42,816 nucleotides of DNA from Oligoflexia bacterium (GTDB lineage: Bacteria; Bdellovibrionota; UBA1018): NCBI GenBank assembly GCA_903898645.1, contig CAIUGE010000033.1:1-42816 (forward strand), given 5' to 3'. The notes under the pieces were generated by a model, which saw only the letters and a list, made by a program, of their open reading frames with translations, was not told the DNA's origin and ran no database searches. The position numbers and the translations under genes were made by a program. This document shows, piece by piece, positions 24,543 through 40,806 of the stretch (the stretch's first letter is position 1; each line of letters starts with the position of its first letter).

Positions 24543-24557
24543 ATGAGAGACTTTTTC

Positions 24558-24770
24558 TTACTTAGCCGCCCCAATCTCTTTACTTTCAACAGAGCCATCA
24601 CGAAGCACTAAAGCTTCGGTGGTTTTGGGCTCAGCAGCAGATGGACCTACCAGAGTTTTCTTAAAACAACCGCCGTAACAGTCAGCTTTCAAGTCGCGGG
24701 GCGGTTCCTGACCAGTACCTGCATAAGCACTCGAGCCCACCAAAACCATCATTACTATTAAAAACTTCAT
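24558..24770 (-). CDS. Small exported protein with a cysteine pair (copy 2)
   Basis: A 70-residue protein with signal peptide Lys-Phe-Leu-Ile-Val-Met...Ser-Ser-Ala-Tyr-Ala and about 50 mature residues containing Asp-Cys-Tyr-Gly-Gly-Cys-Phe. It is a paralogue of the gene at 24983-25213: same signal peptide, same spacing of the Cys-x3-Cys pair, acidic Lys-containing tail. A G-rich ribosome-binding site precedes it. It is the last gene of the leftward run that begins with the Tad pilus. Function unknown; the cysteine pair suggests a disulfide or metal site. Confidence 0.72.
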   Translation of the reverse strand: MKFLIVMMVLVGSSAYAGTGQEPPRDLKADCYGGCFKKTLVGPSAAEPKTTEALVLRDGSVESKEIGAAK

Positions 24771-24910
24771 AATTCATTCCCCCTTCGTACAAAACGATAC
24801 CTTTCTCGTCTTTACATGCAGAGAGCGTGCCACTCAGGCACGCTCCAGAGGGCAACGTGTGTCGCAGAGAACCTACCTATTTTCTAGACCCTGACCTCAA
24901 CGAGACAAAA

Positions 24911-24942
24911 GAAGCCCCACACAGACTGCTGTGTGAGGCTTC
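24911..24942 (-). terminator. Terminator after small exported protein copy 1
   Basis: A near-perfect 14-bp stem (24911-24924 with 24929-24942, one mismatch) with a 4-nt loop. On the minus strand it ends in GGCTTCTTTTGT. Its stem shares GCCCCACAC/GTGTGAGGC with the terminator at 24503-24542, so gene and terminator were duplicated together. Confidence 0.82.
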
Positions 24943-24982
24943 TTCACTCTATGTATCTCAAATAGAACGATCAGCAGAACTG

Positions 24983-25213
24983 CTACTTACCACTATCAGC
25001 AGCATCAGCATTCTTATCAGAATGATTCTCAGCGTCCTTGACTACAGAGCCTTCAACCTTTTTAGCTGGACCCTGCGTCATGTCATTATCACAAGGGCCG
25101 TCACAAGGGGTGACAAAATCCGGCTTATCTTTCTTGCCCGTAGGCTGATCCCCCTGAGCATGTGCACTTGACCCCACCAACAAAAACCCCACCATCACAA
25201 TTAAAAATTTCAT
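24983..25213 (-). CDS. Small exported protein with a cysteine pair (copy 1)
   Basis: A 76-residue protein: signal peptide Lys-Phe-Leu-Ile-Val-Met-Val...Ser-Ser-Ala-His-Ala, then a polar Lys/Asp-rich chain with Pro-Cys-Asp-Gly-Pro-Cys-Asp. A very strong ribosome-binding site (AAGGAGG) precedes ATG 25213. It lies 45 nt downstream of the YD-repeat gene and has its own terminator. Paralogue of 24558-24770. No family recognised. Confidence 0.75.
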   Translation of the reverse strand: MKFLIVMVGFLLVGSSAHAQGDQPTGKKDKPDFVTPCDGPCDNDMTQGPAKKVEGSVVKDAENHSDKNADAADSGK

Positions 25214-25258
25214 ACTTCCTCCTTTGTAAAAAACAAACTATATTTCAGACAAAACCGA

Positions 25259-27031
25259 TTACGGTGTAAACCGCTCACTTGCTAAATTAATCAACCTATA
25301 CAATTCCTGAAAAATCGATGCCACGTCATCAGCAATACCAGGGCCTGTATGGTTCTCAGTTTTCTTGATCTGCCCATCCTCCTGGTACGTCACATCAATT
25401 GCACCAACTGGCGCATAGTTTCCTTCACCAGAAGATTTTCTTTTACTGACTGCTATTTTAATTGGCTTGCCTTCAGCATAGCTAAAGAAGACCTGATGCA
25501 TCGCGTCTGCCATGGTCGAGATCTCGCCTTCACTATTATAGGTGAGCGCAACAATGTGTTTTTTGCTCGATAGCTTGCCATCAATTTTTGACACGACCTG
25601 AATATCTTTCAAATTATCCTGTGCAAGAATCAAATTACCTTTTGCATCATACGTAAAGTCCACACTGATATAAGGGTCTCCCGATTCCTTCCCCTTAGAC
25701 ATACTATAGGCTCGCACAGATGACGTTTTCCCCGACTTTCTGTCAACAGTAAGAACCGTTTTCTTTTCAGGCGATGTCTTGGTGAGCAAATGCCCTGCTT
25801 CATCATAGGTAAAGCTTGTGATTTGCTTGTTATGGTTAATCTCCCGAGGTAAACCTGTTGCTTCATTGTATGTTGTCTCTGTCACATCAGTATCATTGAC
25901 TGTCACTTTCAAAGAAACCAGAACCTGATCGCCGAAAGCATTTCGCTTAAAAATATAAGCATAGCTCGTGCGAATTGCATTCGCCGGATTCTTATCTTCG
26001 CGATCTATCACTTCTGTTTTTGTTGTGATCCTATTATCGTCACCCGGAACGATTATGTAAGAATAGTTCGTCACAAGTTCATTGGTTGACACTTTTTTGA
26101 CGCTTTCATAAAGCGCTTGTCCATAATACTCAATCTCTGTTTTATTTAACTCTTTTCCTGCTGCATTCACTTCAGTAATTTCTCGTATAAAACTTTTGTC
26201 ATTATATTTGTACCTATACGCCTTACCACCTGCATCAATACTTTCAATCATTTGATCTGATCCGTTGTACTTATACTCTGCCTTTTGACCCTTAATACCG
26301 AGCAGAACAATCGTTTCCACAAAACCCTTGGCATTATAGGTAAACTCCAGGGTCCGGCCATCATACGTCACCTTACTAGTATGGCCCGACTTGTCATAGC
26401 TAACAAGCACCTCATTCCCATTACTATCACGGGTTTTGACCAGCTTACCGGCTGCATTAAAATAGTCAGTATCCCCTATCTCGCTTGATCTCACAAAGCT
26501 TTTATCTGGATTCACTCTCAGGACTTGTTTTGCAAACTTGTTAGAACGATACAGGACCCCTGGCTGAACATGAATAGCAGGCACAGGATGATGCAGCGCT
26601 TCTAGCCTCTTCTCAGCCGCCGTTCTTTTTTCTAGATCAGCGAGCTCAACGATACATTTTTCTTTATCTTTTACTGGAAAAATACCTTGCTTTAACTCAG
26701 CATCACAAATGGCCTGTATATGATCCTTAAGTGTCGAAGCATTGACCGAATCGGGCACAAAGAGATTCTCAGCTCCACCACCATACTCAATAATCTGAAT
26801 GGTACCGTCATTAAGAACGTGCGCACATGTTTCAATGGACGATCCCCAAGATTTTCCAAACATGCCAGTAAAAATCGCTTTTGTGTTATACGTTCTTTCA
26901 ACAGTCAGGCGTTCTAGACCTGGGACAGAAATATCAATAAAGGCAGTATTGAAATTTCCGTTTTGCAAGTTCACAGTCGCGTAAGACACTTGCAAAAATC
27001 CAAAAAGAATACATACAAAAAATCGATTCAT
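25259..27031 (-). CDS. Exported YD-repeat (Rhs-like) protein
   Basis: A 590-residue protein with a signal peptide (1-18, ending Val-Ser-Tyr-Ala). The N-terminal beta region (Asn-Gly-Asn-Phe-Asn-Thr-Ala...Val-Glu-Arg-Thr-Tyr-Asn, then Gly-Lys-Ser-Trp-Gly) is like that of Rhs/YD proteins. Repeated Tyr-Asp elements follow (Thr-Tyr-Asp-Gly-Arg, Tyr-Lys-Tyr-Asn, Phe-Thr-Tyr-Asp-Ala-Lys-Gly-Asn-Leu). It lacks the Rhs core autoprotease motif and any toxin-like tail, so it is probably a surface or cell-wall-associated protein rather than a polymorphic toxin. It starts 24 nt after tadB and is likely cotranscribed with the pilus genes. Confidence 0.82.
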   Translation of the reverse strand: MNRFFVCILFGFLQVSYATVNLQNGNFNTAFIDISVPGLERLTVERTYNTKAIFTGMFGKSWGSSIETCAHVLNDGTIQIIEYGGGAENLFVPDSVNASTLKDHIQAICDAELKQGIFPVKDKEKCIVELADLEKRTAAEKRLEALHHPVPAIHVQPGVLYRSNKFAKQVLRVNPDKSFVRSSEIGDTDYFNAAGKLVKTRDSNGNEVLVSYDKSGHTSKVTYDGRTLEFTYNAKGFVETIVLLGIKGQKAEYKYNGSDQMIESIDAGGKAYRYKYNDKSFIREITEVNAAGKELNKTEIEYYGQALYESVKKVSTNELVTNYSYIIVPGDDNRITTKTEVIDREDKNPANAIRTSYAYIFKRNAFGDQVLVSLKVTVNDTDVTETTYNEATGLPREINHNKQITSFTYDEAGHLLTKTSPEKKTVLTVDRKSGKTSSVRAYSMSKGKESGDPYISVDFTYDAKGNLILAQDNLKDIQVVSKIDGKLSSKKHIVALTYNSEGEISTMADAMHQVFFSYAEGKPIKIAVSKRKSSGEGNYAPVGAIDVTYQEDGQIKKTENHTGPGIADDVASIFQELYRLINLASERFTP

Positions 27032-27055
27032 AGATTACCCCATTTACGCAACGCG

Positions 27056-27919
27056 TCACACGTCTATATTGACTATTTTCATGATAACAAAAAAACCCAA
27101 TGATTCCAATAAAATTATAACCATAATAATTATCCACCCAACGGGAGTTGAAAATAGTGGATGCATAAACTCAGGATCTGTTTGATAGAAAATCACACCC
27201 AGTATAGGGGGAATCGCCATCACAAACATACCCTGATAAAACCCCTGCGCTGTCAGTGCCGCAATCTTATTCTCAATTTTAATACGCTCACGTATGGTAC
27301 TCACAATGGTATCAAATGTCTCCGCCAAATTTCCGCCAGTTTCCTTCAGGATATTGATCGATGTCACAAACATTTCAACATCCTCAGACTCAACTCTTCT
27401 TGCTAAATTACTAAACGACTCTTCAAGTGATACGCCAACTTTATTTTGACTAAGAACCAGCTGAAATTCTTGCGAAATCGGGTTAGGCATCTCCTGCGCC
27501 ACAAGTCCCAAAGACTGCGCAATGGAAAGCCCTGATTTTAACCCATTAGACATCAGACCCAGCGCATCAATCATCTGAAGAACAAACTTTTGCACGCGTC
27601 TTTTATAGATCCAATTCACGATAGGCTTTGGCGCTTTCCAGCCAAGGATCGTCACCAAAATGGCAAAGGGTATGCCCGGAAAAAGATGAGGTAAGAATGA
27701 CAAGAAAACAATCGACCCAAGCCCAAAGCTGAGCCCAAAAAGCCCCAAAAGAATCTGGTGCGCTTCTACCTCAATGAACATGACCCCCAGTCGTTCGACA
27801 ATAAAATCACGGGTCCCAAGCGATTGAAACCGCAACCAGTCCAAAAAACGCGCATTATAGGTATACGAAAAAATGAACATCGCAGCCCCAATAGCACCAA
27901 GCCCTGCATACTTGAGCAT
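27056..27919 (-). CDS. tadB: Tad pilus inner-membrane platform protein TadB
   Basis: A 287-residue T2SF-domain protein of the Tad platform. The cytoplasmic domain reads Gln-Met-Ile-Asp-Ala-Leu-Gly-Leu-Met-Ser-Asn-Gly-Leu-Lys-Ser-Gly-Leu-Ser, then Glu-Met-Pro-Asn-Pro-Ile-Ser-Gln-Glu-Phe, Glu-Thr-Gly-Gly-Asn-Leu-Ala-Glu and Thr-Ile-Arg-Glu-Arg-Ile-Lys, the usual TadB pattern. It has about four membrane helices, two at each end. It lies 9 nt downstream of the ATPase fusion gene. TadC, its usual neighbour, is here at the other end of the operon. Confidence 0.92.
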   Translation of the reverse strand: MLKYAGLGAIGAAMFIFSYTYNARFLDWLRFQSLGTRDFIVERLGVMFIEVEAHQILLGLFGLSFGLGSIVFLSFLPHLFPGIPFAILVTILGWKAPKPIVNWIYKRRVQKFVLQMIDALGLMSNGLKSGLSIAQSLGLVAQEMPNPISQEFQLVLSQNKVGVSLEESFSNLARRVESEDVEMFVTSINILKETGGNLAETFDTIVSTIRERIKIENKIAALTAQGFYQGMFVMAIPPILGVIFYQTDPEFMHPLFSTPVGWIIIMVIILLESLGFFVIMKIVNIDV

Positions 27920-27928: not shown

Positions 27929-30070
27929 TTATTTTGCTGCAAAAAGGTTTCGCGAAATCTTCATCCCTTTTGCTTCCATTTCTTCTACAAATTTTGGTAT
28001 AAACCCTGTTGGCACAAAGCGTCCAATAATCTTCCGTTTTTTATCAAGCCCTTCTTGCTTATAAAGAAAAATATCTTGAAGACTAACTACTTCCCCTTGG
28101 ATACCAACAACTTCTGTAATATGCGTCACTCTTCTTGCCCCATCGCTCAATCGTGATTGCTGGATGATAAGACCAACAGCTGAAGCAACGTTTTCACGAA
28201 TGGCTTTTGCCGGTAATCCAAGACCTGCCATCATGACAAGTGTCTCAAGACGCGCTATACATTCACGCGGATTATTCGAGTGTAACGTGGTGAGCGATCC
28301 CGAATGACCTGTATTCATGGCCTGCAACATATCTAATGCTTCGCCGCCTCGACACTCTCCCACGACTATACGATCAGGACGCATACGCAAGCAGCATTTA
28401 ATAAGATCACGAATGGACACCTCGCCTTCGCCTTCTATATTTTTTGGACGCGTCTCAAGCCGTACCACATGCTCCTGAGCAAGCTGCAATTCAGCCGAAT
28501 CTTCCACTGTAATAATACGCTCTGATGCTGGGATAAAATTTGAGAGCACATTCAGCAGTGTCGTTTTTCCAGAACCCGTGCCACCTGATACAACAATATT
28601 CAGCTTTGCCTCAACACAACAGCGAAGAAAGTCAGCAATTTCTTCTGTCATCGACCCAAATGCAATCAAATCCTTATACTCAATTCTTTTCTTAGGGAAT
28701 TTTCGAATTGTTATGGTCGGACCACGAAGTGCAAGTGGAGGTATGATCACATGCACACGCGATCCATCCAAAAGACGTGCATCAACATAGGGTACTTTTT
28801 CATCGACACGACGACCAAGAGGCGTCACAATACGCTCAATCACATTCATCATCTGCGCTTCACTAGAAAAAGTCACTTTAGACATCATGGGCTTTCCTGC
28901 TTTTTCTACATAGATCTGATCACGCGCATTCACCATAATTTCAGTAATAAGATCATCAGCGAGCATATCTTCAAGAGGCCCTAAGCCAAGAGCCTCATCC
29001 AGCACTTCTTTAATAATTTGCGCCTTCAGTTCGCGTGTACTTAGGAGCGATGCCGTATCCTCCATATTAAGGATATCTAAAATTCCTTTTTGTGTTTTTT
29101 CACGAAGAATCGCGCGCTGCTTCGAATCACTCGTATCTACATTCATTTTCTTCAGATCCATCTGCTCAACAAGCGCTTTGTGAATGCGAAGCTTCATCGA
29201 CGTCCATGGATCCAAGGGAGCTGCACTTGATCGGGCAGAAGCGCCGCCAGATCCTGCATCCGCTGGCGCAGTCACCTGCGACTTCACTGATCCTGGCGTT
29301 GGTTTCTTTAATTTTGAAAGATTTTCTAACATATTGGTCTGCTGCATTTTACGAACAATCTCGTGGTATGATTTTGCAACAGCTGAGCTCGGCACACTCA
29401 AACAAACAGGCTGACTCTTTGCCAGCGATCCATCACAGCTTGCTACATCTTCAGGAATGGCGCCAAAGATCTGACGACCAATGTTTTTTTGAATCATCTG
29501 AGGCCCAATAATGTTACTTTGCGAGTACTTATTGACAATAATCTGTACCATTTCTTGAGGAAAGAGAAGCTCCTGAATCTTACTTAACAGCCTCTTTGTT
29601 TGATTGATCACAATCACATCAGCACTGGTAATCACAAATATTACTGTCGCATATTCAAAGACTTTGAGCGCATAAGGATCCATACCATTACCGCAATCGA
29701 TGATAGTAGCACTAAAAATACCTGTTGCCGCTTTCAGAAATCGCCCAAGCCCCTCGATATCAAGGTCACGCGCAGCAATCGAATCACGTGGAGCACCTAC
29801 AAAGCTATAGCCGACAGGCGAATTAATCATCATGGGTCCAAGTGATTTTGGATCTAAGGTCACACCCTGCATTCGACTGATATCAACAATTGTTTTTTGC
29901 GGGTTCTGACCTAAAATGATATTTTGATCACCCAGCGAAGTAAGATCCAAGTCGACAATACAGGGGCGCTGCTTAAGTTCTTGCAAATATGCGATGGCAA
30001 GATTTGCCGTAAAAACACTTTTCCCCACTCCGCCTTTACCGCCTGCTACAGCTATAATATGTCCAGCCAC
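27929..30070 (-). CDS. CpaE-CpaF (TadZ-TadA) fusion ATPase of the Tad pilus
   Basis: A 713-residue protein joining two Tad components that are normally separate. Residues 1-240 are a MinD/ParA-type ATPase like CpaE/TadZ, with deviant Walker A Gly-Lys-Gly-Gly-Val-Gly-Lys-Ser (11-18) and Cys-Ile-Val-Asp-Leu-Asp-Leu (37-43); this part normally places the machine in the cell. After an Ala/Ser/Pro-rich linker (about 250-290), residues 290-713 are a CpaF/TadA secretion ATPase, with Walker A Gly-Gly-Thr-Gly-Ser-Gly-Lys-Thr-Thr (496-504), Val-Val-Gly-Glu-Cys-Arg-Gly-Gly-Glu (569-577) and His-Ser-Gly-Ser-Leu-Thr-Thr-Leu-His (589-597). It powers pilin assembly. It starts 12 nt after the secretin gene. 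Confidence 0.95.
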
Positions 30071-30082: not shown

Positions 30083-31720
30083 TTATTGAACTTTTACTCT
30101 GAATGGTTTAAGATCATCTGTACCTTCAGATGCACTTTCAAGAATTTGAGGCGTTACAAAAATCACAAATTGACTTTTTTGTTTTCGAAACGATTTTGAA
30201 TGAAGCAAATTGTACAACGCTTGCGTCCCTGCAGAAAAACTCCCCTGACTATTAGGGTCATTTTTATTAAAATCAGTACCAATTTCACTCGACGTTACAG
30301 CTGCAACAGCAGCGCTTTCTTTTGACTTAACATAGATCTTCGTCGTCACAGTATGATGCGCAGTAACAGGCGCTGTCCCATTAGGCGCCATCCCCACCAA
30401 GCTGTTGAGATCAAGCTCCATATCCATCTGAATATCTTCACTCTGACCAATAATAAGTGGAGTCATAGCAATATTCAAACCTATTTTTGCATTGGCAGTT
30501 GTTGCCTGCCCATTAGGCCCAGCAAGTGCATACGGGTACTCTGTCTGCTGCAGTAATTTTGTGGGCTGCCCACTACGCACAATGACAGTCCCTGTCTCAA
30601 GAATACGAGCATACCCTGCACTTTGAAGACTCTGCAATTTTGGCAACAAGGACCCAATAGTGCCAGAGAGTGTCGCACCCGCTGTCCCAGTATTTCCAGA
30701 AGCCGACTGACCAAGAGAAATCTGTGGCCCATCCGAAGTAAAGCCCGGCTGCCAACCAAAGCTAAAAAGCTTATTGTAGTCTTTCCTCAGTTCAACAAAA
30801 TGCACCGTGATACGCACAAGTTTTTCTTGCTTTTTTTGCTTGGGCGGCTTAATCACAATAAAATTTTGTATCAAAGGACGAGCTGCGAGCCGCTGGACGG
30901 TAGGGTCCCGCTCAAGAGGATTGCCAGGCCGGAGGTCCGGCAAGTAAAGTGTCGCAACACTATTTGCCCGCTTTGCTTGGTCTGCAGAATCAACACTCCC
31001 TTCAAGAAATATCATTGAATTCACAACCCTGGTTTTCACATCAGGCGCAAAGGCATTAACATCATCCTGAATTTTTTTACCAATCACCTGCATGGTCAGA
31101 GGTGAAAGTCCTGCCATATTAATCACATAATCTGCATAGCTCTTATCTTGAATCACTGTCAAAAGTGTCCCGTAATCGGCAGGCACAATGACCTGTCCCT
31201 CAATCACAACTTTTGGCCCTACAATACGGATAGTTAAACCTTCAACATCACGTAGCAAAGATCTAATCTCCTGCGCAACACGCAAGAGATTAGAACCGGT
31301 CACTCGCACCATAAAAATCAAACGGAGTGTGCCATCAGCATCACGAACACTGACTGTCGTTTCTCCTGCCTTCAAAGGCTTGAAGATAATTTGACGCTTC
31401 TCTCCAATTTTCACAAGCGTCGTTGTCACAATCTGTGGATTGCCATAACTGATTCCATTGGCACCAGCATTTGCTTCAAAATCAAGATCGACTGCTTTAT
31501 CTTCACCTGTTGTCAATAAAAGTCTTCTTTTATCAGCTTCAATTTCTGACTGATCATACGTAAGCTGGGATTGTCTATATTTCAATCCACGCTCTTTGTC
31601 TTTTTCAGCCTGCTCAGACGCTTTTTGTTCCTGCAATGGATCAGAAGGCACATCATCAAGAACACCATCAATGGGAGTTGCCGCAAAACTCATAAGCATC
31701 AAAAAGATAGAAAGTATCAT
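30083..31720 (-). CDS. cpaC: Tad pilus secretin CpaC/RcpA
   Basis: A 545-residue outer-membrane secretin forming the pilus exit channel. A short signal peptide is followed by a charged helical stretch, a pilus-assembly N-terminal domain (to about residue 140), a BON-like segment (about 145-190), and the secretin core with Val-Arg-Ile-Thr-Val-His-Phe-Val-Glu-Leu. Near the C-terminus is Val-Ile-Phe-Val-Thr-Pro-Gln-Ile-Leu. The start overlaps the cpaB stop by 4 nt (ATGA). No lipobox is seen, so outer-membrane insertion may need a separate pilotin. Confidence 0.92.
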   Translation of the reverse strand: MILSIFLMLMSFAATPIDGVLDDVPSDPLQEQKASEQAEKDKERGLKYRQSQLTYDQSEIEADKRRLLLTTGEDKAVDLDFEANAGANGISYGNPQIVTTTLVKIGEKRQIIFKPLKAGETTVSVRDADGTLRLIFMVRVTGSNLLRVAQEIRSLLRDVEGLTIRIVGPKVVIEGQVIVPADYGTLLTVIQDKSYADYVINMAGLSPLTMQVIGKKIQDDVNAFAPDVKTRVVNSMIFLEGSVDSADQAKRANSVATLYLPDLRPGNPLERDPTVQRLAARPLIQNFIVIKPPKQKKQEKLVRITVHFVELRKDYNKLFSFGWQPGFTSDGPQISLGQSASGNTGTAGATLSGTIGSLLPKLQSLQSAGYARILETGTVIVRSGQPTKLLQQTEYPYALAGPNGQATTANAKIGLNIAMTPLIIGQSEDIQMDMELDLNSLVGMAPNGTAPVTAHHTVTTKIYVKSKESAAVAAVTSSEIGTDFNKNDPNSQGSFSAGTQALYNLLHSKSFRKQKSQFVIFVTPQILESASEGTDDLKPFRVKVQ

Positions 31721-32559
31721 TTTTTTACTGCAACCCCGCCTGCCTTTTGGACATCAGCCCCTAAAATATCTCCCATGGTTGACGCACTCATCATCACCCG
31801 GTCGATATCATCGTTATTACGAAGCATAAGCATAGGCGGCGTATCTCCAACTGACAAAATAAGACTCAACATCTGGGCGCTCAATGGCTCCAACTCTAAC
31901 GTTACCGAACTGAACGAAAAATCTTCAACAAGGGATCGTATTTTTTCCTTTCCACCAAAAGGATCAGGCTCAACAATGCGGGCTACATTATTATTTACAT
32001 TCCTACCAATTGCAAGAACAACGACATCTTGCAGGACTGTTTTTGCAATACGGTTCTCTTTTTTTCCAGTCAGCTCAAAAAAACAGATCACATCAACACG
32101 ATCCCCAGGCTTAATGAGCTTCGCAACGCCTGTTATTTCATTCACAGACATTGAAATAGCTCTTTTGCCTGGCGTGATCTGAGGCGCAAGTCCTGTACGA
32201 AGACCAATATCTGTAATTTTATTATTAGTAAGCTGCTCGTTTTTCTTAATTGGCACCATAGCAATAGAGCCAGCAAGACCCTTTAAGGTCCGCATATTCT
32301 CTTTCTCATCTTCTTTTTTATCTGACTTATCAAGTGAAACAGCAGCTGGCTCTAAGAATGTTTTTGGCACCCTTTTAAACTCAAGCATCGTTTCATTGAT
32401 GGTCTCCATCTCTCTGATATCTCGCTTTGCAACAACAACAAGCACTTCTGTTCCAAACTTCTTTTGCGCCTCTTCCTCAATGCTACTCACATAGCTTTGT
32501 ACAAAAAAAACTGCAACAACAGCCATAAAAAGGGAAAGTGTGAGAGCTTTATTATTCAT
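31717..32559 (-). CDS. cpaB: Tad pilus assembly protein CpaB/RcpC
   Basis: A 280-residue protein with one N-terminal membrane helix (about 5-24) and a periplasmic SAF-like domain (Val-Val-Val-Ala-Lys-Arg-Asp-Ile-Arg-Glu-Met-Glu, then Ile-Lys-Pro-Gly-Asp-Arg-Val-Asp-Val). CpaB links the inner-membrane machine to the secretin and may touch peptidoglycan. A Lys/Asp/Glu-rich insertion (about 75-88) interrupts the SAF domain. It starts 3 nt after the TadE-like gene and overlaps cpaC by ATGA. Confidence 0.93.
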   Translation of the reverse strand: MNNKALTLSLFMAVVAVFFVQSYVSSIEEEAQKKFGTEVLVVVAKRDIREMETINETMLEFKRVPKTFLEPAAVSLDKSDKKEDEKENMRTLKGLAGSIAMVPIKKNEQLTNNKITDIGLRTGLAPQITPGKRAISMSVNEITGVAKLIKPGDRVDVICFFELTGKKENRIAKTVLQDVVVLAIGRNVNNNVARIVEPDPFGGKEKIRSLVEDFSFSSVTLELEPLSAQMLSLILSVGDTPPMLMLRNNDDIDRVMMSASTMGDILGADVQKAGGVAVKK

Positions 32560-33177: not shown

Positions 33178-33720
33178 TCAAAAGTTTGGCGCAACCAAAA
33201 AAAGCCATGCAAGCATCATAGGCACGGCAAATGGCATATGGATCGACGCATCTAATCGTAACGGAACAAAACTCATCTCAGGAAGCAAAGAGAACAGTGT
33301 TGCATACACGCGATAAAAAAAACTTGTTTTTTTCCGCAATGCCTGAAAAAAAAGTACCACAAAAGCAAGAAGTGCTCCCATAAAAAGCGACACCACACCA
33401 ATCGCAAGCGCCGCACCAGGATGGCTCCAGAATCCCAACGCCATCAAAAGTTTGACATCACCTGCGCCTAAAATGCGCGCCACAAAAAGCGGTATAAAGA
33501 GAAAAAATCCCGCGCCTAATCCAAGCGCCGCCTCTCCGAGCTGGACCTGCATAGCACGACAAAAAAGTGCACCTATAAGGCTCGCAAGAATCATTTTATT
33601 ATAAATTTTCCCTGATCGAATATCGCTGATAAGCGCAAAAAGGAGAGTGACCCCTATAGCAAAAATATTAATTTGACCAAGTCGTAAGCTGCAAGCGGCC
33701 TGATTTAAGATCTCGTTCAA
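33178..33720 (-). CDS. tadV: Prepilin peptidase (TadV/CpaA)
   Basis: A 180-residue membrane aspartyl protease that trims Flp prepilins. The catalytic aspartates are Asp33 (Ser-Asp-Ile-Arg-Ser-Gly-Lys-Ile) and Asp88 in Gly-Ala-Gly-Asp-Val-Lys-Leu-Leu. About six membrane helices are present and there is no methyltransferase domain, as usual for TadV. The start is TTG 33720, supported by AGGAGG with a 5-nt spacer. It lies inside the end of the second pilin gene (53-nt overlap). Confidence 0.92.
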   Translation of the reverse strand: MNEILNQAACSLRLGQINIFAIGVTLLFALISDIRSGKIYNKMILASLIGALFCRAMQVQLGEAALGLGAGFFLFIPLFVARILGAGDVKLLMALGFWSHPGAALAIGVVSLFMGALLAFVVLFFQALRKKTSFFYRVYATLFSLLPEMSFVPLRLDASIHMPFAVPMMLAWLFLVAPNF

Positions 33721-33877
33721 GCTGCCCTCCTAGCGTTAATAACCCACTTGTAAGCGTTGCAATAAGCGCCCTCCCGAACTGAAGAGCACCCACAACTGTA
33801 ACACTTAAAATAAGAATATACTCAACTGTCGCCTGACCTTCCTCATCAAGGAAAAAAATCGCCGTTTTCTTGATCAT
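33668..33877 (-). CDS. Flp-type pilin (second copy)
   Basis: A 69-residue prepilin with a short charged leader, the Flp cleavage motif Gly|Gln-Ala-Thr-Val-Glu-Tyr (14-19) and a hydrophobic helix (Ile-Leu-Ile-Leu-Ser-Val). The C-terminal tail is basic. Its ATG overlaps the first pilin stop by 4 nt (ATGA). It is less like typical Flp1 in its tail and may be a minor pilin. Its 3' end overlaps tadV. Confidence 0.87.
   Translation of the reverse strand: MIKKTAIFFLDEEGQATVEYILILSVTVVGALQFGRALIATLTSGLLTLGGQLERDLKSGRLQLTTWSN
33721..33731 (-). promoter_or_regulatory. Ribosome-binding site deciding the TTG start of tadV
   Basis: On the minus strand this reads AGGAGGGCAGC directly before TTG 33720. 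A near-perfect anti-16S match inside the preceding pilin gene shows that the non-ATG start and the 53-nt overlap are genuine. Confidence 0.75.
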
Positions 33878-34071
33878 TGGCCGTTCGATACGCTCTGATC
33901 AATATTCCCGCCAACAGCATCAATAATATGTGTCAATTTGTCGCCGAAGACTTGTTTAAATTTCATCGCTATCATAACAACAACTGACAAAATAAGAATA
34001 TACTCGGTTGTGGACTGGCCTGATTCATCATCGAAAAAGGAGCGGAAACCAGAAACTATCTTTGCTGACAT
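33874..34071 (-). CDS. Flp-type pilin (first copy, probable major pilin)
   Basis: A 65-residue prepilin with leader, cleavage motif Gly|Gln-Ser-Thr-Thr-Glu-Tyr and the helix Ile-Leu-Ile-Leu-Ser-Val-Val-Val-Met. ATG 34071 has a G-rich ribosome-binding site (AAAGGGGGAAA). A longer reading to 34149 would give an unusually long leader and is rejected. Its end overlaps the second pilin by ATGA, so both are made together. Confidence 0.87.
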   Translation of the reverse strand: MSAKIVSGFRSFFDDESGQSTTEYILILSVVVMIAMKFKQVFGDKLTHIIDAVGGNIDQSVSNGQ

Positions 34072-34145
34072 GCATTTCCCCCTTTCTTCTTCGACCTCTA
34101 CTAACTTCATGATACTATATCGGCTAAATTTAAATTTAGTCAAAT

Positions 34146-34937
34146 TCATCCACCAATCTCAAGCATCGCCACATGGTGTCTGCCTGTGTCATTTTTACCA
34201 TAGACTTTCAGAGCCTCAGTAAACAAAATTTCCTTAGATAAGCTTGCATGTTTCATGCCTTCTTCCATCGCCCGCATCAAGCGCGGTACAGAGACTTGAC
34301 TAGATATAAAAAAAATAGCATCGCCAGGCTGAAGACGGTAATCACGCACCTCGGGCTCAAAGGATGCAGTCAAACCAAGCGCAGTGACAGGATATGCTTG
34401 ACTAACAAAAATGTCGCTCTCTTCATCACTTGACAAATCATTGACAAATGGATCTCGTAACTGAGCATACGAATGGGGCTGCAGCAGCCACGAAACATGA
34501 GAACCTCGCATGCACAGCGCCCCACAGGCACCCACACGCGCAAGCGCATACCCTCCGGCATCAACACTGAGCGCAATAAGGGACGCTCCCGTACGCAAGC
34601 CCTGACGTGATGCACCTTTGTGCTCCTTATTCAGCTTGATGAGCAGGTCATGCGCATAGGTCATGCCATTCAGCAGAATATTGCCCGCTAAGGAGAGATC
34701 CGCCCTTAAAACAAAGGGCAAGGTAGCATCTTTATCGCCTACTCCTTGAGAAAGGAAGGAAACAAACCCTTCCTGAGCTTGCGTCCAAGTCTTGGCATCA
34801 CCAAAATATTCTGAAAAAATAAGGAAATTCTTGTCAGGACGAACAATAAAAGTATCTGACTGCACTACTGCGTTGTCACGCACAGAGTGACTCGATGCAT
34901 CAAAAACCCAAAGTTTTGCAAAAGGATTACGACTCAT
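34146..34937 (-). CDS. PP2C-like protein lacking metal ligands (probable pseudophosphatase)
   Basis: A 263-residue protein with a PP2C-like layout. It has an N-terminal Ser-His-Ser-Val-Arg-Asp-Asn segment where PP2C has Gly-x-x-Arg-x-x-Asn-Glu-Asp, and a central Tyr-Ala-Leu-Ala-Arg-Val-Gly-Ala-Cys-Gly-Ala where PP2C has Val-Gly-Asp-Ser-Arg-Ala. A late Gln-Pro-Gly-Asp-Ala-Ile-Phe-Phe-Ile-Ser-Ser segment matches the strand before the last aspartate motif. The aspartates that hold the two metal ions are not where expected, so activity is doubtful. ATG 34937 overlaps the FHA gene stop by 11 nt. It may bind phosphorylated partners of the FHA proteins. Confidence 0.6.
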   Translation of the reverse strand: MSRNPFAKLWVFDASSHSVRDNAVVQSDTFIVRPDKNFLIFSEYFGDAKTWTQAQEGFVSFLSQGVGDKDATLPFVLRADLSLAGNILLNGMTYAHDLLIKLNKEHKGASRQGLRTGASLIALSVDAGGYALARVGACGALCMRGSHVSWLLQPHSYAQLRDPFVNDLSSDEESDIFVSQAYPVTALGLTASFEPEVRDYRLQPGDAIFFISSQVSVPRLMRAMEEGMKHASLSKEILFTEALKVYGKNDTGRHHVAMLEIGG

Positions 34938-36984
34938 CTTCTTTTTTCCTAAAATAGTGCGATAGTTTACGCATAGCCCGATCGTGGTACTCATCATCAA
35001 CTGGGGCGACTTTCAGACATTCACGAAACTTTTTCTGCGCCTCATCAAACTCACTATACCCTTCGGCTAAAATCGCTTCCGTATAAATGCCACGAGCACG
35101 TTCATGCAGCACAAGCTTGACACGAGCCAATCCATCCCGCCAGCTGTTATCACGTGGATCGATAGCAGCTACCTTCTTATAAGAAACTATCGCCTCCTCA
35201 TAATGCGCCTCTTTTTCTTGCTTCTGCGCTTCCTCCAAAAGAGGATCTCGCTTCTTTTTAAGAGCCCTAGCAGCCGCATCGATCTGAGCCCGAGCGTGAC
35301 GCATCAATCCAGGCAACTCTGCTCCTGATGTAAGGACTTTCTTATAGACCGTCACTGCATCATAGTAACGTTCTTCTTGATACAACGCATCTGCATTAGC
35401 AGCAATTTTCTTTGCATTTTTATTCAGATCTCGCTGAATAGAATCCTTCTCAGCTTGCAGTCGTTTTTTCTCTTCAAAAGATTCGACTATACGCCGCCAA
35501 TCTGCAACAGCTGGATTGTCAGGATCAATGGAAAGCACCTGAGCGAAAAGCTCACGCGCATCATCATATTTTTTCTCTTTCATCTTCTTACTTGTTTCAA
35601 TCACCAATGCCTCAACTTTAGCCTTAAGCCTCATCTCGTCTGCTTTTTTCTTTCTCTCATCTTCCATTGCCTCAAGTTTCTTTTTGCCTTCTTTGGCATA
35701 TCTGAGTATTTCTTGGGAATCTTTAAAATCTTGGATAATAGAAAATATTTTAGAAATTTCAAAAATAGCTTTGTCGTACTCTTTATGAGTATAATAATCA
35801 AAAGCAAGCCCATGCTGAGCTTCAATAAATCGTTTCTGCAAATCAGGCAATGCTTCAAAACTGGTCGCTACTGTCTTAGCAGCATCCTTAGCGACAAGAG
35901 GTGAAGTGCTTGCTGGAGCAGGAGCCGCTTTTTTAACAACCACAGGTTTCGTATCATCCATCAAAAACCAGAAAAGTGCTAAAACAACAGCAACACCTAA
36001 ACTCTGCTGCATCTTTGGAAGCGCACGGAATTTATCAAGCAATGTTTTTTTTGACTGCAATTCAGGCGCAATACCTACAATTGAAGGAGCCGCTTCTTCA
36101 ATTGGCGACTCTTCTACTTGCTCAAAAATACCATTTTCTTCCTGCGAAGGCACAAACTCGTCTTGTTCAATCTCAGGAACTGACTCAACAAGACTCTCTT
36201 GCTTAGCAATGTAATCATTACTCATGATCCCAACGCGGAACTCAGTATCAGCTATACGTATGCGATCTTCACCAGATAAAGTACTTGACTCCTTGATTTG
36301 TTGGCCATTGAGATACACGCCATTAACAGAACCAAGATCCTCAAGCACAATAGATAAACCACGCCGCAAGATACGCGCATGCTGCCGCGAGGCTTTTTGG
36401 TCATTCAGCACAATATCGCACTCAGGACTACGACCTAAGACAATCTCCCCATCCAGGATCTCCCGGATCTGACAGTTTGCTTGACCTTCCTCAAAGTAAA
36501 GTGCCACATTAACATGATCCATATCCATAATGCTTGTTTTAGCATCATCATCTTCCTGCATAACAAATGCGGGCTCTTCTTCAATTTTTTCTTCCGCATC
36601 GAGCTGCAGGACTTCTCCTCCTTCAATGACTGCAAGCGAAGGTTCATCTGGCACCAGCGCCCGCTCTTCTGCTGGCTTTTCAGCAGGCTGCACGTCTATC
36701 CCCTCATGGATACGGAGCTCAAAATCACCAACTCCAAGCACATCCCCTAACTTCAGGGTCGCCTGATCACGCTGTGCCCCATTCACCAGAATCCGTGCAA
36801 GATCACTTTTTTTCTCAAGAAAAATACCGCGACCAACAAGTCGCAACATCCCATGCCGACGACTAATGCTTGGATGATCGAGTCTTATAGGACAATCAGG
36901 ACCACGCCCAAAGAGCATTTCGCCCTCTAAATTATAATCTGCAAGTGCCTGCCCTGATTGATAGACCGCCAGGCGCAGTGCCAT
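34927..36984 (-). CDS. Membrane protein with two FHA domains and TPR repeats
   Basis: A 685-residue protein. FHA-1 (about 1-95) has Gly-Arg-Gly-Pro-Asp-Cys-Pro-Ile (26-33) and Ser-Arg-Arg-His (41-44) but lacks the Ser-x-Asn-Gly turn. FHA-2 (about 158-255) is complete: Gly-Arg-Ser-Pro-Glu-Cys-Asp-Ile (184-191), Ser-Arg-Gln-His (199-202), Ser-Val-Asn-Gly (219-222). An acidic linker and a single membrane helix (about 326-344) follow, then about 300 residues of TPR and Lys/Glu-rich helices that would lie in the periplasm. FHA domains bind phosphothreonine peptides, so this links a phospho-signal inside to the pilus scaffold outside. Its ATG overlaps the previous stop (TAATG). Confidence 0.88.
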   Translation of the reverse strand: MALRLAVYQSGQALADYNLEGEMLFGRGPDCPIRLDHPSISRRHGMLRLVGRGIFLEKKSDLARILVNGAQRDQATLKLGDVLGVGDFELRIHEGIDVQPAEKPAEERALVPDEPSLAVIEGGEVLQLDAEEKIEEEPAFVMQEDDDAKTSIMDMDHVNVALYFEEGQANCQIREILDGEIVLGRSPECDIVLNDQKASRQHARILRRGLSIVLEDLGSVNGVYLNGQQIKESSTLSGEDRIRIADTEFRVGIMSNDYIAKQESLVESVPEIEQDEFVPSQEENGIFEQVEESPIEEAAPSIVGIAPELQSKKTLLDKFRALPKMQQSLGVAVVLALFWFLMDDTKPVVVKKAAPAPASTSPLVAKDAAKTVATSFEALPDLQKRFIEAQHGLAFDYYTHKEYDKAIFEISKIFSIIQDFKDSQEILRYAKEGKKKLEAMEDERKKKADEMRLKAKVEALVIETSKKMKEKKYDDARELFAQVLSIDPDNPAVADWRRIVESFEEKKRLQAEKDSIQRDLNKNAKKIAANADALYQEERYYDAVTVYKKVLTSGAELPGLMRHARAQIDAAARALKKKRDPLLEEAQKQEKEAHYEEAIVSYKKVAAIDPRDNSWRDGLARVKLVLHERARGIYTEAILAEGYSEFDEAQKKFRECLKVAPVDDEYHDRAMRKLSHYFRKKEDES

Positions 36985-37925
36985 TAGCTGCCACCATCCA
37001 GATCATGCATAATTTTATCCACCCGTTCTTTTGCTTCCAAATACCGTGGACTCGACTGATCTCGATAAAGGAGCCGCATCACACTTTGGAATTGTCCTCT
37101 TGCCGAGCGTAACTTGCCAGCATCGAATTCTTTTTTTCCTACCTGCAAGAAAAACTTCACTGACTCATCAATAGATTTATCACAATTTTCTAAGTAGATA
37201 CTTGCAAGCGTATGATTAGGCGAAATCTGGAGCACCGTCTCAAATTGTACCTTCGCACGCCTAAAATTACCTGCAAAGTACTCGCGCAACCCATCTTTCA
37301 TAATAGCCTCAGCCATGCGGTTCGCATCTGCATGAGGCAAATAACGCTCCAAATCCTTCGATTCAGACTCAAGAACTTGCTTCATAAAAGGTATCTTAGG
37401 GCGCTTGCCATTAGGTAATAAAAAGAGGAGCACCAGCACACACACCACCACAATCAGAATAATTCGCCTTCTATCAGGCTTATTGCCACCAAGCTGTTGC
37501 CGCCGCATCTTCAGAGCTTTTTGGTCATCTAACCGCTCCTGCATAGGCTTTGGTGGCATCGTCAGAACCTTTGTCCCTGCCTCAACAGGGACAAATTCTA
37601 AAATAGTATCTCCAATCCCCAGTGCATCACCCGGCCGCAAGGTCGCTTCTTTAACAAGATCCCCATTCCAGAGAAATCCATTAGCACTCCCACGATCAAC
37701 TGCTTTCCATACCCCCGCTTGCAGTACCAATGCAGCATGCACACGTGACGCCTTAGGGTCAGAAATAACAACATCACATGTTTCAGCTCGTCCTAAAGTT
37801 ACTTGAGGTACAAAGATACTATAGACACACCCAAGATCAATGCCTTGAGACACTTTAAGCCGGACAAGTTCCCCAGCTTGTTTCTTACCCGCATCCTGAC
37901 TGCGTAACTTAAGAACAGACGCCAT
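36984..37925 (-). CDS. Membrane protein with FHA domain and TPR-like tail
   Basis: A 313-residue protein. It has an FHA domain (about 18-112; Gly-Arg-Ala-Glu-Thr-Cys-Asp-Val 45-52, Ser-Arg-Val-His 60-63, Gly-Ser-Ala-Asn-Gly 79-83), a basic linker, a membrane helix (about 153-171) and a periplasmic helical region with two TPR-like units. The layout matches the two-FHA protein next to it, so the two are probably diverged duplicates. It starts 5 nt after the FHA sensor gene and overlaps the next gene by TAATG. Confidence 0.87.
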   Translation of the reverse strand: MASVLKLRSQDAGKKQAGELVRLKVSQGIDLGCVYSIFVPQVTLGRAETCDVVISDPKASRVHAALVLQAGVWKAVDRGSANGFLWNGDLVKEATLRPGDALGIGDTILEFVPVEAGTKVLTMPPKPMQERLDDQKALKMRRQQLGGNKPDRRRIILIVVVCVLVLLFLLPNGKRPKIPFMKQVLESESKDLERYLPHADANRMAEAIMKDGLREYFAGNFRRAKVQFETVLQISPNHTLASIYLENCDKSIDESVKFFLQVGKKEFDAGKLRSARGQFQSVMRLLYRDQSSPRYLEAKERVDKIMHDLDGGS

Positions 37926-37930
37926 CTTTT

Positions 37931-39526
37931 TTAACCACTCTCATCGGATTGCCGAACGGCAAGCATCATGTAACAACGCGCCGATCCCATCGATGCACCA
38001 AATCCTGATACATAGACCGCATAGCTTATGCCAGAAAAATCAAAATCCTCCTTTTGCGATTCGCCTCCATTCTGGACCCGGTCAAACAGATCACGCACGA
38101 ATGCCCCTAAAGCCTGATCACGGGCCACATCCTGTATTTCCATACCGAGCGAACCTTCTGATCGAATGCCGCTTATCTCCTCAAAAAGCGAATTGATGAA
38201 CAATAGCTTGCGATCAGCATCACAGAGCACCACCCCCCCAATATCACCCAAAAATCGAAGCGCAGGCACAAGCTCCTCAGCATAGGCGCGTCTATTATCT
38301 TGAGATTCAAATCCGCCCCCCATCGAAGATGTTTTTGGAATACGAATCAATGCCGCATTAATCATATCCCAGAGACTATTTGTCTCTGTAAAAAGGTACT
38401 CATGCGTCACTTGACTCAACTCACCTTTGAGTGCCCGGTCCATATCCTCAGTCAGGATTTCTAATGGCCGAAGAAATAATTTATAGAGAACGAAAAAGAT
38501 AATAAAAGCAATCAGCGCTGTCAGAATCAACACCTCAGAATACATAACCCCAACTTCACCAAATCCAGGGATTGCAAGTGAGCTATCGATTGAGACAATC
38601 GCCATCGCAACAATCACATTACGACCCACAGCTGGATTCAAAACTTTGACCGGCTCCACTGCAACGACAAGATCATCATCCTGAATGCTCGTAAACCCTG
38701 TTTCCCGGCCCTTACGAAACGCATCACGTGCCCGCACAGCAATCGTTGCCTCAGCGCCTGACGAAAGATAGCTATTCAACTTGGTCGCAGGAGCAATGAT
38801 ACGGCTATCAAGATCAATCAGCACAGCCGTCATCACACCTTCTGCTGATTCAACCGATCCAATTTCAGCTTTCGTTTCATTATGGGCAGCCAAAAATTGC
38901 GAATTCATCTCAACAATTTGATGTGCCATAAAGGATGCTCGCCGCGCTGTTTCCTGTAAAATACTTTTCCTATTAGCATCAACAAGAGGCGTGACAGAAA
39001 AAAGGAGATTCAAGATAAGAAAAAAACCCAGCATACCAACACCCATCACCTGGAGCTCATACTTGGTATTCATTGTATAAAATGGAGGCATTATTTTTTC
39101 ATTAAAGAAAAAAACCATTTTTTCCTTTAATGTCTTAGGTGGCGCTGGCGCATAAAAATCCTGCACTGGAGCATCGATAGCCTCAGGCAACGCAAATACA
39201 TCTGTATCTTTCTTCTTAAGTGGCAATTTTTTCTTTTCAGCAGAAAAGAGAACCTCAAAGATAGTCTCACCAATACTCAGCCTGTCACCAATTTGCAATT
39301 CCTTCTCACGAATCAACATGCCATTGACGAAGGTTCCATTTGAACTTCCAAGATCACGCGCCCGCATTGCTGAATTTTCAACATAAATCACACAATGCTG
39401 CTTTGAAACCCGTACAGACGGCAATACAATATCATTTCCTGCCACTCGCCCAATTGTAAATTTCCCTGGATTCAGTACATGTGTATGCCCTTTATCAATC
39501 CCGTCTATGATTTTAAGCTTATACAT
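37931..39526 (-). CDS. FHA-domain membrane sensor with periplasmic domain and PAS-like tail
   Basis: A 531-residue protein with an unusual order. An FHA domain (about 1-95; Gly-Arg-Val-Ala-Gly-Asn-Asp-Ile 26-33, Ser-Lys-Gln-His 41-44, Ser-Ser-Asn-Gly-Thr 61-65) is followed by a membrane helix (about 159-180). A periplasmic region of about 145 residues resembles Cache-type sensors. A second helix (about 327-350), a HAMP-like stretch (Leu-Arg-Pro-Leu-Glu...Met-Asp-Arg-Ala-Leu-Lys-Gly-Glu-Leu) and a PAS-like domain (about 420-500) end the protein. No kinase or cyclase domain follows, so output probably runs through protein contacts. A strong ribosome-binding site (GGGAGGG) precedes ATG 39526, which lies inside the end of the DUF192 gene (22-nt overlap). 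Confidence 0.82.
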   Translation of the reverse strand: MYKLKIIDGIDKGHTHVLNPGKFTIGRVAGNDIVLPSVRVSKQHCVIYVENSAMRARDLGSSNGTFVNGMLIREKELQIGDRLSIGETIFEVLFSAEKKKLPLKKKDTDVFALPEAIDAPVQDFYAPAPPKTLKEKMVFFFNEKIMPPFYTMNTKYELQVMGVGMLGFFLILNLLFSVTPLVDANRKSILQETARRASFMAHQIVEMNSQFLAAHNETKAEIGSVESAEGVMTAVLIDLDSRIIAPATKLNSYLSSGAEATIAVRARDAFRKGRETGFTSIQDDDLVVAVEPVKVLNPAVGRNVIVAMAIVSIDSSLAIPGFGEVGVMYSEVLILTALIAFIIFFVLYKLFLRPLEILTEDMDRALKGELSQVTHEYLFTETNSLWDMINAALIRIPKTSSMGGGFESQDNRRAYAEELVPALRFLGDIGGVVLCDADRKLLFINSLFEEISGIRSEGSLGMEIQDVARDQALGAFVRDLFDRVQNGGESQKEDFDFSGISYAVYVSGFGASMGSARCYMMLAVRQSDESG

Positions 39527-39879
39527 ATGGTCCCTCCCACCAAAAGATCGAAATGTGCTATTGCGTTTTCAGCCAATTCCAAAGTGGTATCTGCATGCCA
39601 ATCCATACAAACAAACTGCCATGGCCGCACACATGGACGGGTACTTGAAATAACAAACAGAAAAGGATCCTGAGTACGCTTCAGAAAAACGACATCAATT
39701 GTGCATCGCATAAAAAGTGTATGGATACTCCTGCAGGCCGGAAAAAGCATGCCTACTTGCATACCAATATGAGATTTATGCAAAAACCCCCGCGCCTTAT
39801 GCAAGAAACTCTTTGCTAAAAAACAATGCTCAAGAAAAGGTGTCTTTTCTGATACCTTTCTCAATGATACTTGTTGCAT
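39505..39879 (-). CDS. DUF192 family protein
   Basis: A 124-residue protein matching DUF192: Lys-Ala-Arg-Gly-Phe-Leu early, then Gly-Met-Leu-Phe-Pro-Ala-Cys-Arg-Ser-Ile-His-Thr-Leu-Phe-Met-Arg-Cys-Thr-Ile-Asp-Val and a late Leu-Glu-Leu-Ala. Unlike many members it has no signal peptide. Function of the family is unknown. ATG 39879 directly follows the tadC stop (TAGATG) and has a strong ribosome-binding site (CCAGGAGGGG) within tadC, so it belongs to the Tad operon. Confidence 0.85.
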   Translation of the reverse strand: MQQVSLRKVSEKTPFLEHCFLAKSFLHKARGFLHKSHIGMQVGMLFPACRSIHTLFMRCTIDVVFLKRTQDPFLFVISSTRPCVRPWQFVCMDWHADTTLELAENAIAHFDLLVGGTICISLKS

Positions 39880-40806
39880 CTACACCCCTCCTGGATAGAT
39901 AAAACCTAACAAAAACGGTCCAAAAATCATCAACATCACAGCAGGCAAAATAAAAAGCACAAGAGGCAAGAGGACCATCTGGGCCGCTGCAACGCCAGCT
40001 TTTTCAGCACGAAGCATCCGTTCAGACCGGATAGTCTCAGACTGCTGCCTCAAAATCTTTCCAATCGATGCGCCCATCTGGTCAGCTGAGATCAAAATTG
40101 CCACAAAAGAATTCACTTCAGACATAGCAATGCGGGCAGCCATTTCACGTAATGCCTCGGCACGGGACGCACCCACTTTGATTTCTTTCAAGAGCTGTGC
40201 AAACTCATCCACAAGAGGTGATTTTTTTGCTTTATCAACTACCTTGCCAATAGCTCCAACAAAATCGAGTCCTGCCTCAGTTGATAAAGCCAGAAGATCG
40301 ACAATAAAAGGCATCGAACGCAGCACTTTTTTCTGCCTTGCTGCAACTCTGCTATTGACCCAAAAATCAGGATAAAACCAGCCTGCAATGCCCGTAGCTA
40401 ACACCCAGTACCAAGCAACAGCAATAAAATCTCCAGCATTGAGCACACCGCCCACAAGGGGGAAGAAAACAATCAAAAGCGCCTTAAAGGAAATAAACTC
40501 ATCTGGTGTGAGCTCATCTTTGAGCCCCCCCGCAATCAATTTTCGTCTATAAATTTTCCGCCTGACGTCCCAAAAAGGCTTACCCCGAATCATAGGAACA
40601 AGATACTGTGTGAAAAACGGTCGTAGTATTCTAACAAGAAAATTACTTGACACCCTATCGCGTAATTCTGCCAAATTCTCTTGTGCAGCTCGGCTCTCCT
40701 GCTCATCAAGCAGCATCCGAGCTAAAATAAACGCTCCCACCCCAATAAGTCCGTAAGCGGCATTGAGAACAAGCTGACCTGTCTCCATAGATTCTAAATG
40801 GATCAT
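39880..40806 (-). CDS. tadC: Tad pilus inner-membrane platform protein TadC
   Basis: A 308-residue T2SF-domain protein. The TadC pattern is clear: Leu-Arg-Ser-Met-Pro-Phe-Ile-Val-Asp-Leu-Leu-Ala-Leu-Ser-Thr-Glu-Ala-Gly-Leu-Asp, then Ala-Asp-Gln-Met-Gly-Ala-Ser-Ile-Gly and Arg-Ala-Glu-Lys-Ala-Gly. The end is Leu-Pro-Leu-Val-Leu-Phe-Ile-Leu-Pro-Ala. It is the first gene of the leftward pilus operon and is separated from its partner tadB by twelve other genes. ATG 40806 is favoured (AGAAGG just upstream); TTG 40809 is adjacent. Confidence 0.92.
   Translation of the reverse strand: MIHLESMETGQLVLNAAYGLIGVGAFILARMLLDEQESRAAQENLAELRDRVSSNFLVRILRPFFTQYLVPMIRGKPFWDVRRKIYRRKLIAGGLKDELTPDEFISFKALLIVFFPLVGGVLNAGDFIAVAWYWVLATGIAGWFYPDFWVNSRVAARQKKVLRSMPFIVDLLALSTEAGLDFVGAIGKVVDKAKKSPLVDEFAQLLKEIKVGASRAEALREMAARIAMSEVNSFVAILISADQMGASIGKILRQQSETIRSERMLRAEKAGVAAAQMVLLPLVLFILPAVMLMIFGPFLLGFIYPGGV

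Follow-up and report, generated by a model that had tools for sequence, protein, structure and literature searches.

A candidate predation-type Tad pilus locus uniting the pilus and FHA gene sets that Bdellovibrio keeps apart

Introduction

In Bdellovibrio bacteriovorus, bd0108-0119 form the 'hit'/TAD locus (PMC5430801, PMC3818213), and bd0470-0475 form an operon in which Bd0474 comprises two cytosolic FHA domains, a transmembrane (TM) segment and a periplasmic TPR region (PMC12034629). Knock-outs of flp1, flp2 and flp4 lose predation and keep prey attachment, and the TAD promoter is driven by FliA (PMC5430801). The transposon mutant Bd0474::tn attaches to prey without killing or rounding, and attachment itself needs TadC (Bd0470) (PMC6561027). 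Bd0108 and Bd0109 interact and affect both piliation and the switch to prey-independent growth (PMC3818213). Here we analyse a 42,816-nucleotide stretch (the window; contig CAIUGE010000033.1 of assembly GCA_903898645.1) from an Oligoflexia bacterium of the Bdellovibrionota, in which one run of leftward genes encodes a Tad pilus together with three FHA-domain proteins and a PP2C-fold protein.

A related machine is the Kil system of Myxococcus, which derives from Tad, includes numerous FHA proteins and is needed for contact-dependent killing; Kil assembles upon prey contact, and its authors proposed an upstream FHA signalling cascade (PMC8460266). The predation cyclase DgcB of B. bacteriovorus carries the tail LEKpTSIV, and its phosphopeptide-FHA complex has been solved (PMC6733907).

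Results

One cluster holds both gene sets

On gene content, order and sequence comparison, we consider it moderately probable that the cluster at 24558-40809 is a predation-type Tad (type IVb/Kil-like) pilus locus joining two gene sets that are separate in Bdellovibrio. Its 17 leftward open reading frames (ORFs), running from tadC to the second of two small exported genes, are all intact and separated by −74 to +48 bp, apart from the two small genes, which lie 212 bp from each other. Pfam matched T2SSF twice, DUF192, FHA in three proteins (one with two domains), TPR, prepilin peptidase, RcpC/CpaB, secretin and RHS repeats, as well as T2SSE behind a CbiA/ParA domain in the fusion ATPase; PAS, Flp1-like and TadE matches were weak. 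The core set of a Tad/type IVb (Flp) pilus is present: CpaF/TadA, two platform proteins, secretin, CpaB, prepilin peptidase, Flp pilins and a TadE-like protein. Pfam found no TadD pilotin, RcpB or TadG among the 17 genes, no genome-wide search having been made.

A first-pass annotation of this DNA had described a leftward Tad run of about 17 genes with overlaps or short gaps, three FHA membrane proteins with four FHA domains, a sensor-like periplasmic domain and PAS-like tail in one of them, and a PP2C-like gene. ORF coordinates, gaps and Pfam bear out the run, and Pfam the FHA count; the sensor and PAS regions appear in an AlphaFold2 model (Pfam PAS being weak), and the PP2C identity follows from relatives' PP2C_2 matches, a profile comparison and the fold. 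In setting the module apart from canonical Tad operons, it overlooked that the set is that of Bdellovibrio hit/TAD plus bd0470-0475, and that FHA proteins also occur in Kil (PMC3818213, PMC5430801, PMC12034629, PMC8460266). The combination of FHA with Tad is already a known feature of predatory bacteria; what this locus adds is that the genes are contiguous, the way this arrangement is distributed over the phylum, a phosphatase that has degenerated and an invariant linker threonine. The genes are as follows.

39880..40809, minus strand: TadC-like inner-membrane platform protein, 309 aa (Pfam T2SSF; matches bd0470 by position)
39505..39879, minus strand: DUF192 protein, 124 aa, accessory gene beside tadC (Pfam DUF192; conserved position next to tadC)
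37931..39526, minus strand: FHA-TM-periplasmic α/β (Cache-like)-TM-HAMP-like-PAS protein, 531 aa, hereafter FHA-PAS (Pfam FHA, weak PAS; AlphaFold2; Foldseek)
36984..37925, minus strand: FHA-TM-TPR-type protein, 313 aa, hereafter FHA-TPR (Pfam FHA; conserved order; TM and TPR-like region read from sequence)
34927..36984, minus strand: double FHA-TM-TPR protein, 685 aa, hereafter double-FHA (Pfam two FHA and TPR; Bd0474 has the same architecture, PMC12034629)
34146..34940, minus strand: PP2C-fold protein, probable pseudophosphatase (ORF open to 35000, likely start 34940; relatives and fold)
33874..34071, minus strand: Flp1-type pilin (Pfam Flp1_like 2.9e-06, under the curated cut-off; conserved position; ORF open to 34149, likely start 34071 (MSAKIV) rather than 34149)
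33668..33877, minus strand: second Flp-type pilin, 69 aa (weak Flp1_like; conserved position)
33178..33720, minus strand: CpaA/TadV prepilin peptidase (Pfam Peptidase_A24)
32563..33129, minus strand: TadE-like minor pilin (weak Pfam TadE; conserved)
31717..32559, minus strand: CpaB/RcpC (Pfam RcpC)
30083..31720, minus strand: CpaC/RcpA secretin with BON-like region (Pfam Secretin; BON under cut-off)
27929..30070, minus strand: TadZ(ParA-like)-CpaF/TadA fusion ATPase (TadZA), 713 aa (Pfam CbiA and T2SSE; matches Bd0111 by position)
27056..27919, minus strand: TadB-like inner-membrane platform protein (Pfam T2SSF; matches Bd0110 by position)
25259..27031, minus strand: YD/RHS-repeat exported protein (Pfam RHS_repeat, DUF6531; matches Bd0109 by type and position)
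24983..25213, minus strand: small exported disorder-prone protein, 76 aa (sequence and composition; Bd0108-like position)
24558..24770, minus strand: second small exported protein, 70 aa (apparent paralogue of the first)

The likeness to the Bdellovibrio loci spans the small exported, YD/RHS, TadB, TadZA, secretin, CpaB, flp, TadC and FHA genes (PMC3818213, PMC5430801, PMC12034629). As in hit/TAD, the YD/RHS gene is followed by a small exported disordered protein and lies beside TadB and TadZA; the same pair occurs in relatives, most of which have an equivalent small exported ORF after RHS. The small proteins resemble Bd0108 by position, signal peptide and composition only, being short, disorder-prone and variable. 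A block of TadC-DUF192-FHA-FHA-2xFHA-PP2C-like genes is intact in Bdellovibrio sp. qaytius (CP025734; L165) and in metagenome-assembled genomes (MAGs) of Bacteriovorax (L166) and Halobacteriovoraceae (L167), and in all three it lies far from the flp-to-RHS block (~0.35 Mb apart in qaytius), where RHS is again followed by a small exported ORF. The qaytius homologues are 40% identical to TadC, which shares 50-77% with relatives, and 26% to the YD/RHS protein (E 4e-33); the TadZ-CpaF fusion is 66-82% identical within the order. The numbers bd0471, bd0472 and bd0475 were assigned by order, not sequence, with the HD100 numbering of PMC12034629. Whereas Bdellovibrio has two separate loci, the window has a single contiguous cluster; it also differs in its two tandem small exported genes and in its TadF-like gene, a second TadE/TadF-like minor pilin. 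Relatives have this gene between tadE and cpaB; the window cluster lacks it, and in this genome it has moved to another contig, at C109:18228-18680 (L181 3907-4738), beside an extra flp-like gene.

Compared by description, the likeness to Kil consists of a Tad-derived pilus, over-represented FHA proteins and a tie to prey contact and killing (PMC8460266, PMC12075869), and FHA proteins are indeed encoded in the window locus. Kil genes are divided between two other clusters, and KilF carries an N-terminal FHA domain where the window CpaF has a ParA/TadZ-like domain instead. In two loci outside the Bdellovibrionota (L098 and L106, one labelled Verrucomicrobia), an FHA match lies directly before CpaF, resembling an FHA-KilF fusion. 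The threonine-phosphorylation pathway of the type VI secretion system comprises the PpkA kinase, Fha1 and the PppA phosphatase. The window locus is similar in encoding one or more FHA readers and a PP2C-fold protein with a contact-dependent envelope machine; it differs in that the cluster has no kinase gene, the PP2C is degenerate and the machine is a Tad pilus.

Gene order is conserved across the phylum

Gene order was compared on the long contigs of 20 relatives from about six families of the order; on some of these, TadC or DUF192 was cut off or fell under the search threshold. The first-pass annotation had named a lack of conservation between FHA and tad genes as evidence that would count against it, and the order TadC-DUF192-FHA-FHA-FHA-PP2C is kept on 20/20 contigs. 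On 18 of them the order continues directly through flp-flp-CpaA-TadE-CpaB-secretin-TadZA-TadB-RHS, BLAST having missed single small members in some; a 19th (L063) keeps the linked order up to the contig edge, which falls inside TadZA. Genome G021, of the same family, has both blocks intact and 35 kb apart, the break falling exactly between PP2C and flp1 (L051, L203). The linked order is also seen in L204, from a different family of the class, and in L206, from a distant one, and ~4.6 kb separates PP2C from flp1 in L205. Because this arrangement is found throughout the order and outside it, chance is excluded, and an arrangement unique to the window is rejected. An obligatory link between the FHA and pilin blocks is likewise rejected, given Bdellovibrio, Bacteriovorax and G021.

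FHA-PAS is encoded in 40/40 relatives. Across the phylum, it was found at E <= 1e-25 in 109/114 genomes, and a TadZA/CpaF match in 114/114; a scan of named genomes with a single FHA-PAS protein had given no match, and the scan was redone with a TadZA alignment. The five genomes with a TadZA/CpaF match and no FHA-PAS at E 1e-25 fall in families f16 and f19 and represent natural losses. Tad loci from records labelled Bacillota/Firmicutes, Riflebacteria and Gudongella (L087, L089, L090, L091, L110, L117) also have a DUF192 gene close to tadC or directly beside it, so that DUF192 seems to be an accessory gene of Tad systems in general.

The point at which the two blocks part company carries a promoter-like site:

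34114..34143, minus strand: promoter-like site upstream of flp1 (TTGACT-18-TATAGT, overlapping GCCGATAT)

Many relatives have TTGAC..TATAAT-like and FliA-like boxes at the same junction between PP2C and flp1, and in relatives the stretches ahead of flp1 and tadC are enriched for FliA-like boxes (combined p 1e-6 and 1e-8, relatedness ignored). A FliA promoter in the window itself was rejected, as the −10-like GCCGATAT lacks a proper −35 and is not significant (p = 0.34). Since a promoter-like site precedes flp1 and the cluster splits exactly there in other genomes, a single transcript is unproven; two transcription units fit the recurrent PP2C|flp1 breakpoint, and one operon fits the short gaps in the window.

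Most FHA domains keep their phosphothreonine-binding residues

That the FHA domains read phosphothreonine (pThr), as proposed in the first-pass annotation, is supported for most of them by conservation of the binding residues: in three of the four domains the contact residues R, S and N vary little or not at all. FHA-PAS carries the full binding set (G-R, S-x-x-H, N-G), with R27, S41, H44 and N63 invariant in 24 orthologues. FHA-TPR carries it with exceptions among relatives, Ser60 of the SR.H motif being present in 24/24 rows and Ser80 of GSxNG in 23/24. In the second FHA domain of double-FHA, R185, S199, S219 and N221 are invariant (16 rows) and the histidine is often N in relatives.

The AlphaFold2 model of FHA-PAS has a predicted local distance difference test score (pLDDT) of 82.5 and a predicted template-modelling score of 0.41, so that the relative placement of domains is not reliable. 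It runs from FHA through a TM helix, an α/β periplasmic domain, a second TM helix and a HAMP-like helix to PAS. Foldseek matched its FHA domain to GarA, OdhI and Bdellovibrio DgcB with phosphopeptide (6hc1), and FHA-PAS also to a WalK sensor kinase model and to YscD/PscD; all 24 FHA-PAS proteins match Yop-YscD_cpl.

An invariant linker threonine resembles the DgcB tail

Between the two FHA domains of double-FHA lies a candidate site for such readers:

36535..36537, minus strand: Thr150 codon of double-FHA (candidate phospho-acceptor in the inter-FHA linker, DDDAKTSIM)

Thr150 is present in 24/24 double-FHA orthologues within an otherwise variable linker; position −3 is D or E in 21/24 and position +2 is V/I/L/M in 23/24. 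The DgcB homologue of this genome, an FHA-GGDEF protein on contig C78 (L003, L202), carries an N-terminal EKTTVI tail. A DgcB-type threonine tail motif was seen in 19/20 FHA-GGDEF loci inspected across the phylum. We scored every threonine of a protein with a matrix trained on DgcB tails alone. Thr150 ranked first of 14 threonines in the window protein, and the linker threonine ranked first in 12/24 orthologues, where ~1 is expected by chance; the sequences being related, this ranking is support rather than proof. Among the other cluster proteins of the window, one threonine (in DUF192, EKTPFL) outscores Thr150, and the matrix alone is not decisive. Thr150 is an invariant candidate phospho-acceptor whose surroundings resemble the DgcB pThr tail. 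The parallel with DgcB (Bd0742) is an FHA domain reading a threonine in an acidic K-T-x-hydrophobic motif (PMC6733907); DgcB makes cyclic di-GMP (c-di-GMP), whereas double-FHA sits in the membrane and has its TPR region in the periplasm.

The PP2C-fold protein is a probable pseudophosphatase

Pfam did not match the window member as PP2C, whereas 17/23 relatives' members match PP2C_2. A profile comparison with solved PP2Cs gave E 5e-22 to tPphA, and the AlphaFold2 model (pLDDT 74) has the β-sandwich PP2C fold, with Foldseek matches to tPphA (E 4e-11) and PppA. Motif positions (ED, DGxGG, DG, DN) were placed by alignment to tPphA. Three of the four metal-ligand aspartates are lost (DG to EY at 64-65, DG to SQ at 234-235 and DN to RH in the last motif), and D49 alone is kept; from these positions, an active phosphatase in this genome was rejected. 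Some of the 23 aligned members have all motifs (for example L045, L047, L050, L051, L063, L166 and L167) and many lack one or more; in B. qaytius the homologous protein is short and likewise degenerate. The best-conserved stretch (consensus EAGDLDATLPFVLR.Y.SLAGNVLFNAL.HAN) is not a catalytic motif. The window protein is therefore probably a pseudophosphatase and unlikely to act as an eraser: with the metal ligands lost and the best-conserved stretch non-catalytic, a role as binding partner is likelier here than dephosphorylation.

A conserved transmembrane kinase is encoded elsewhere

FHA readers would need a Ser/Thr kinase, and the first-pass annotation had asked whether one co-occurs. A canonical transmembrane Ser/Thr kinase does so in 40/40 relatives; in this genome it is a 603-aa protein with a C-terminal PEGA-like region on contig C114. 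Kinase-domain proteins with apparent N-terminal signal peptides (C48, C66, C89, C79, C47 and C77; L008, L009, L010, L012, L013 and L014) suggest an exported kinase-like family in this genome; because of those signal peptides, they are unlikely writers.

Flanking features

On its 5′ side the cluster borders a divergent glycoside hydrolase family 3 gene (40911), and acyl-CoA carboxylase-type genes, named by eye from sequence, lie past the 3′ end. A terminator-like hairpin stands at 24503-24532, past the second small gene. Within 24503-24982 (minus strand) a similar hairpin (AGCCTCACA..TGTGGGGCTT) follows each small gene, the one between the genes being seen by eye, which would fit a tandem duplication of small exported gene plus terminator. 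The region is flanked by a pair of similar exported proteins rich in glycine (VPN.FTAG.PISAS..NQNFS..A) at 18400-19344 and 42027-42716, both on the plus strand. The genome measures 2.0 Mb, and four of its six FHA matches fall inside the cluster.

Discussion

A predation-type pilus locus of this kind could work as follows. The three FHA proteins would sit at the inner membrane around TadB, TadC and CpaF, with their FHA domains in the cytosol and their TPR and sensor domains in the periplasm, where the TPR and Cache-like domains may connect to the envelope. Contact with a target cell would activate a Ser/Thr kinase encoded elsewhere, which would phosphorylate threonines such as Thr150 of double-FHA. 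The resulting pThr would be read by FHA domains of the same protein set, assembling an inner-membrane FHA ring that would license TadB, TadC and CpaF to extrude Flp pili; the PP2C-like protein, dead in this genome, would be a binding partner and not an eraser. An extended version, which we think unlikely, has double-FHA and DgcB reading out one contact-activated Ser/Thr kinase, with the linker threonine phosphorylated like the DgcB tail, c-di-GMP and Tad firing licensed together, and the PP2C-fold pseudophosphatase holding the site.

Several observations pull the other way. None of the 17 cluster genes encodes a kinase, and the C114 kinase has no direct tie to the locus. The first FHA domain of double-FHA keeps R27, S41 and H44 but lacks the GSxNG segment, and the PP2C is catalytically degenerate in the window and in many relatives. 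FHA folds also serve as purely structural parts, as in YscD. The equivalence of bd numbers rests on B. qaytius and on published descriptions. Gating of the pilus by phosphorylation and envelope sensing is something we infer, and it is plausible.

The structural role of FHA folds leads to a different account, possible and in our judgement doubtful, in which the FHA-TM-TPR proteins form a YscD-like inner-membrane ring or scaffold that links CpaF/TadB/TadC to the secretin and replaces TadD, TadG and RcpB, pThr binding being a relic. It would explain the Yop-YscD_cpl matches of FHA-PAS and the Foldseek hits to YscD/PscD, and it is helped by the dead PP2C of the window, by the periplasmic TPR domains, through which Bd0474 binds the TPR protein Bd0075 (PMC12034629), and by the reported lack of TadG, RcpB and TadD in Kil (PMC8460266). 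A relic would hardly be expected, however, to keep R, S and N in three of four FHA domains, or a linker threonine invariant within a linker that otherwise varies.

The separation of the blocks by hundreds of kb in Bdellovibrio and Bacteriovorax and by 35 kb in G021, together with the promoter-like box that each block has of its own, could instead mean that they are co-localised without functional coupling, the FHA/PP2C block serving another contact-sensing output (type IVa pili, gliding or c-di-GMP). We regard this as improbable: TadC stays in the FHA block even where that block is separate, families that have diverged widely share the linked order, and FHA genes are also part of Kil clusters (PMC8460266). 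Erosion of the regulatory layer in this 2.0 Mb genome, for which the lost PP2C metal ligands and the missing TadF-like gene might be taken as signs, strikes us as very improbable; all frames are intact and short-gapped, a TadF-like gene persists on another contig next to a further flp-like gene, the FHA residues and Thr150 are kept, and relatives whose genomes are larger have lost PP2C residues too.

A predation-type Tad locus uniting the two Bdellovibrio gene sets bears on prey sensing, on how the Tad/Kil pilus is switched on in predators and on which kinase acts on DgcB (PMC6733907). Conserved gene order connects the hit/TAD pilus with the FHA block (bd0470-0475) phylum-wide. With one invariant candidate phosphosite and one conserved transmembrane kinase, a general guess about signalling becomes testable by point mutants in Bdellovibrio.

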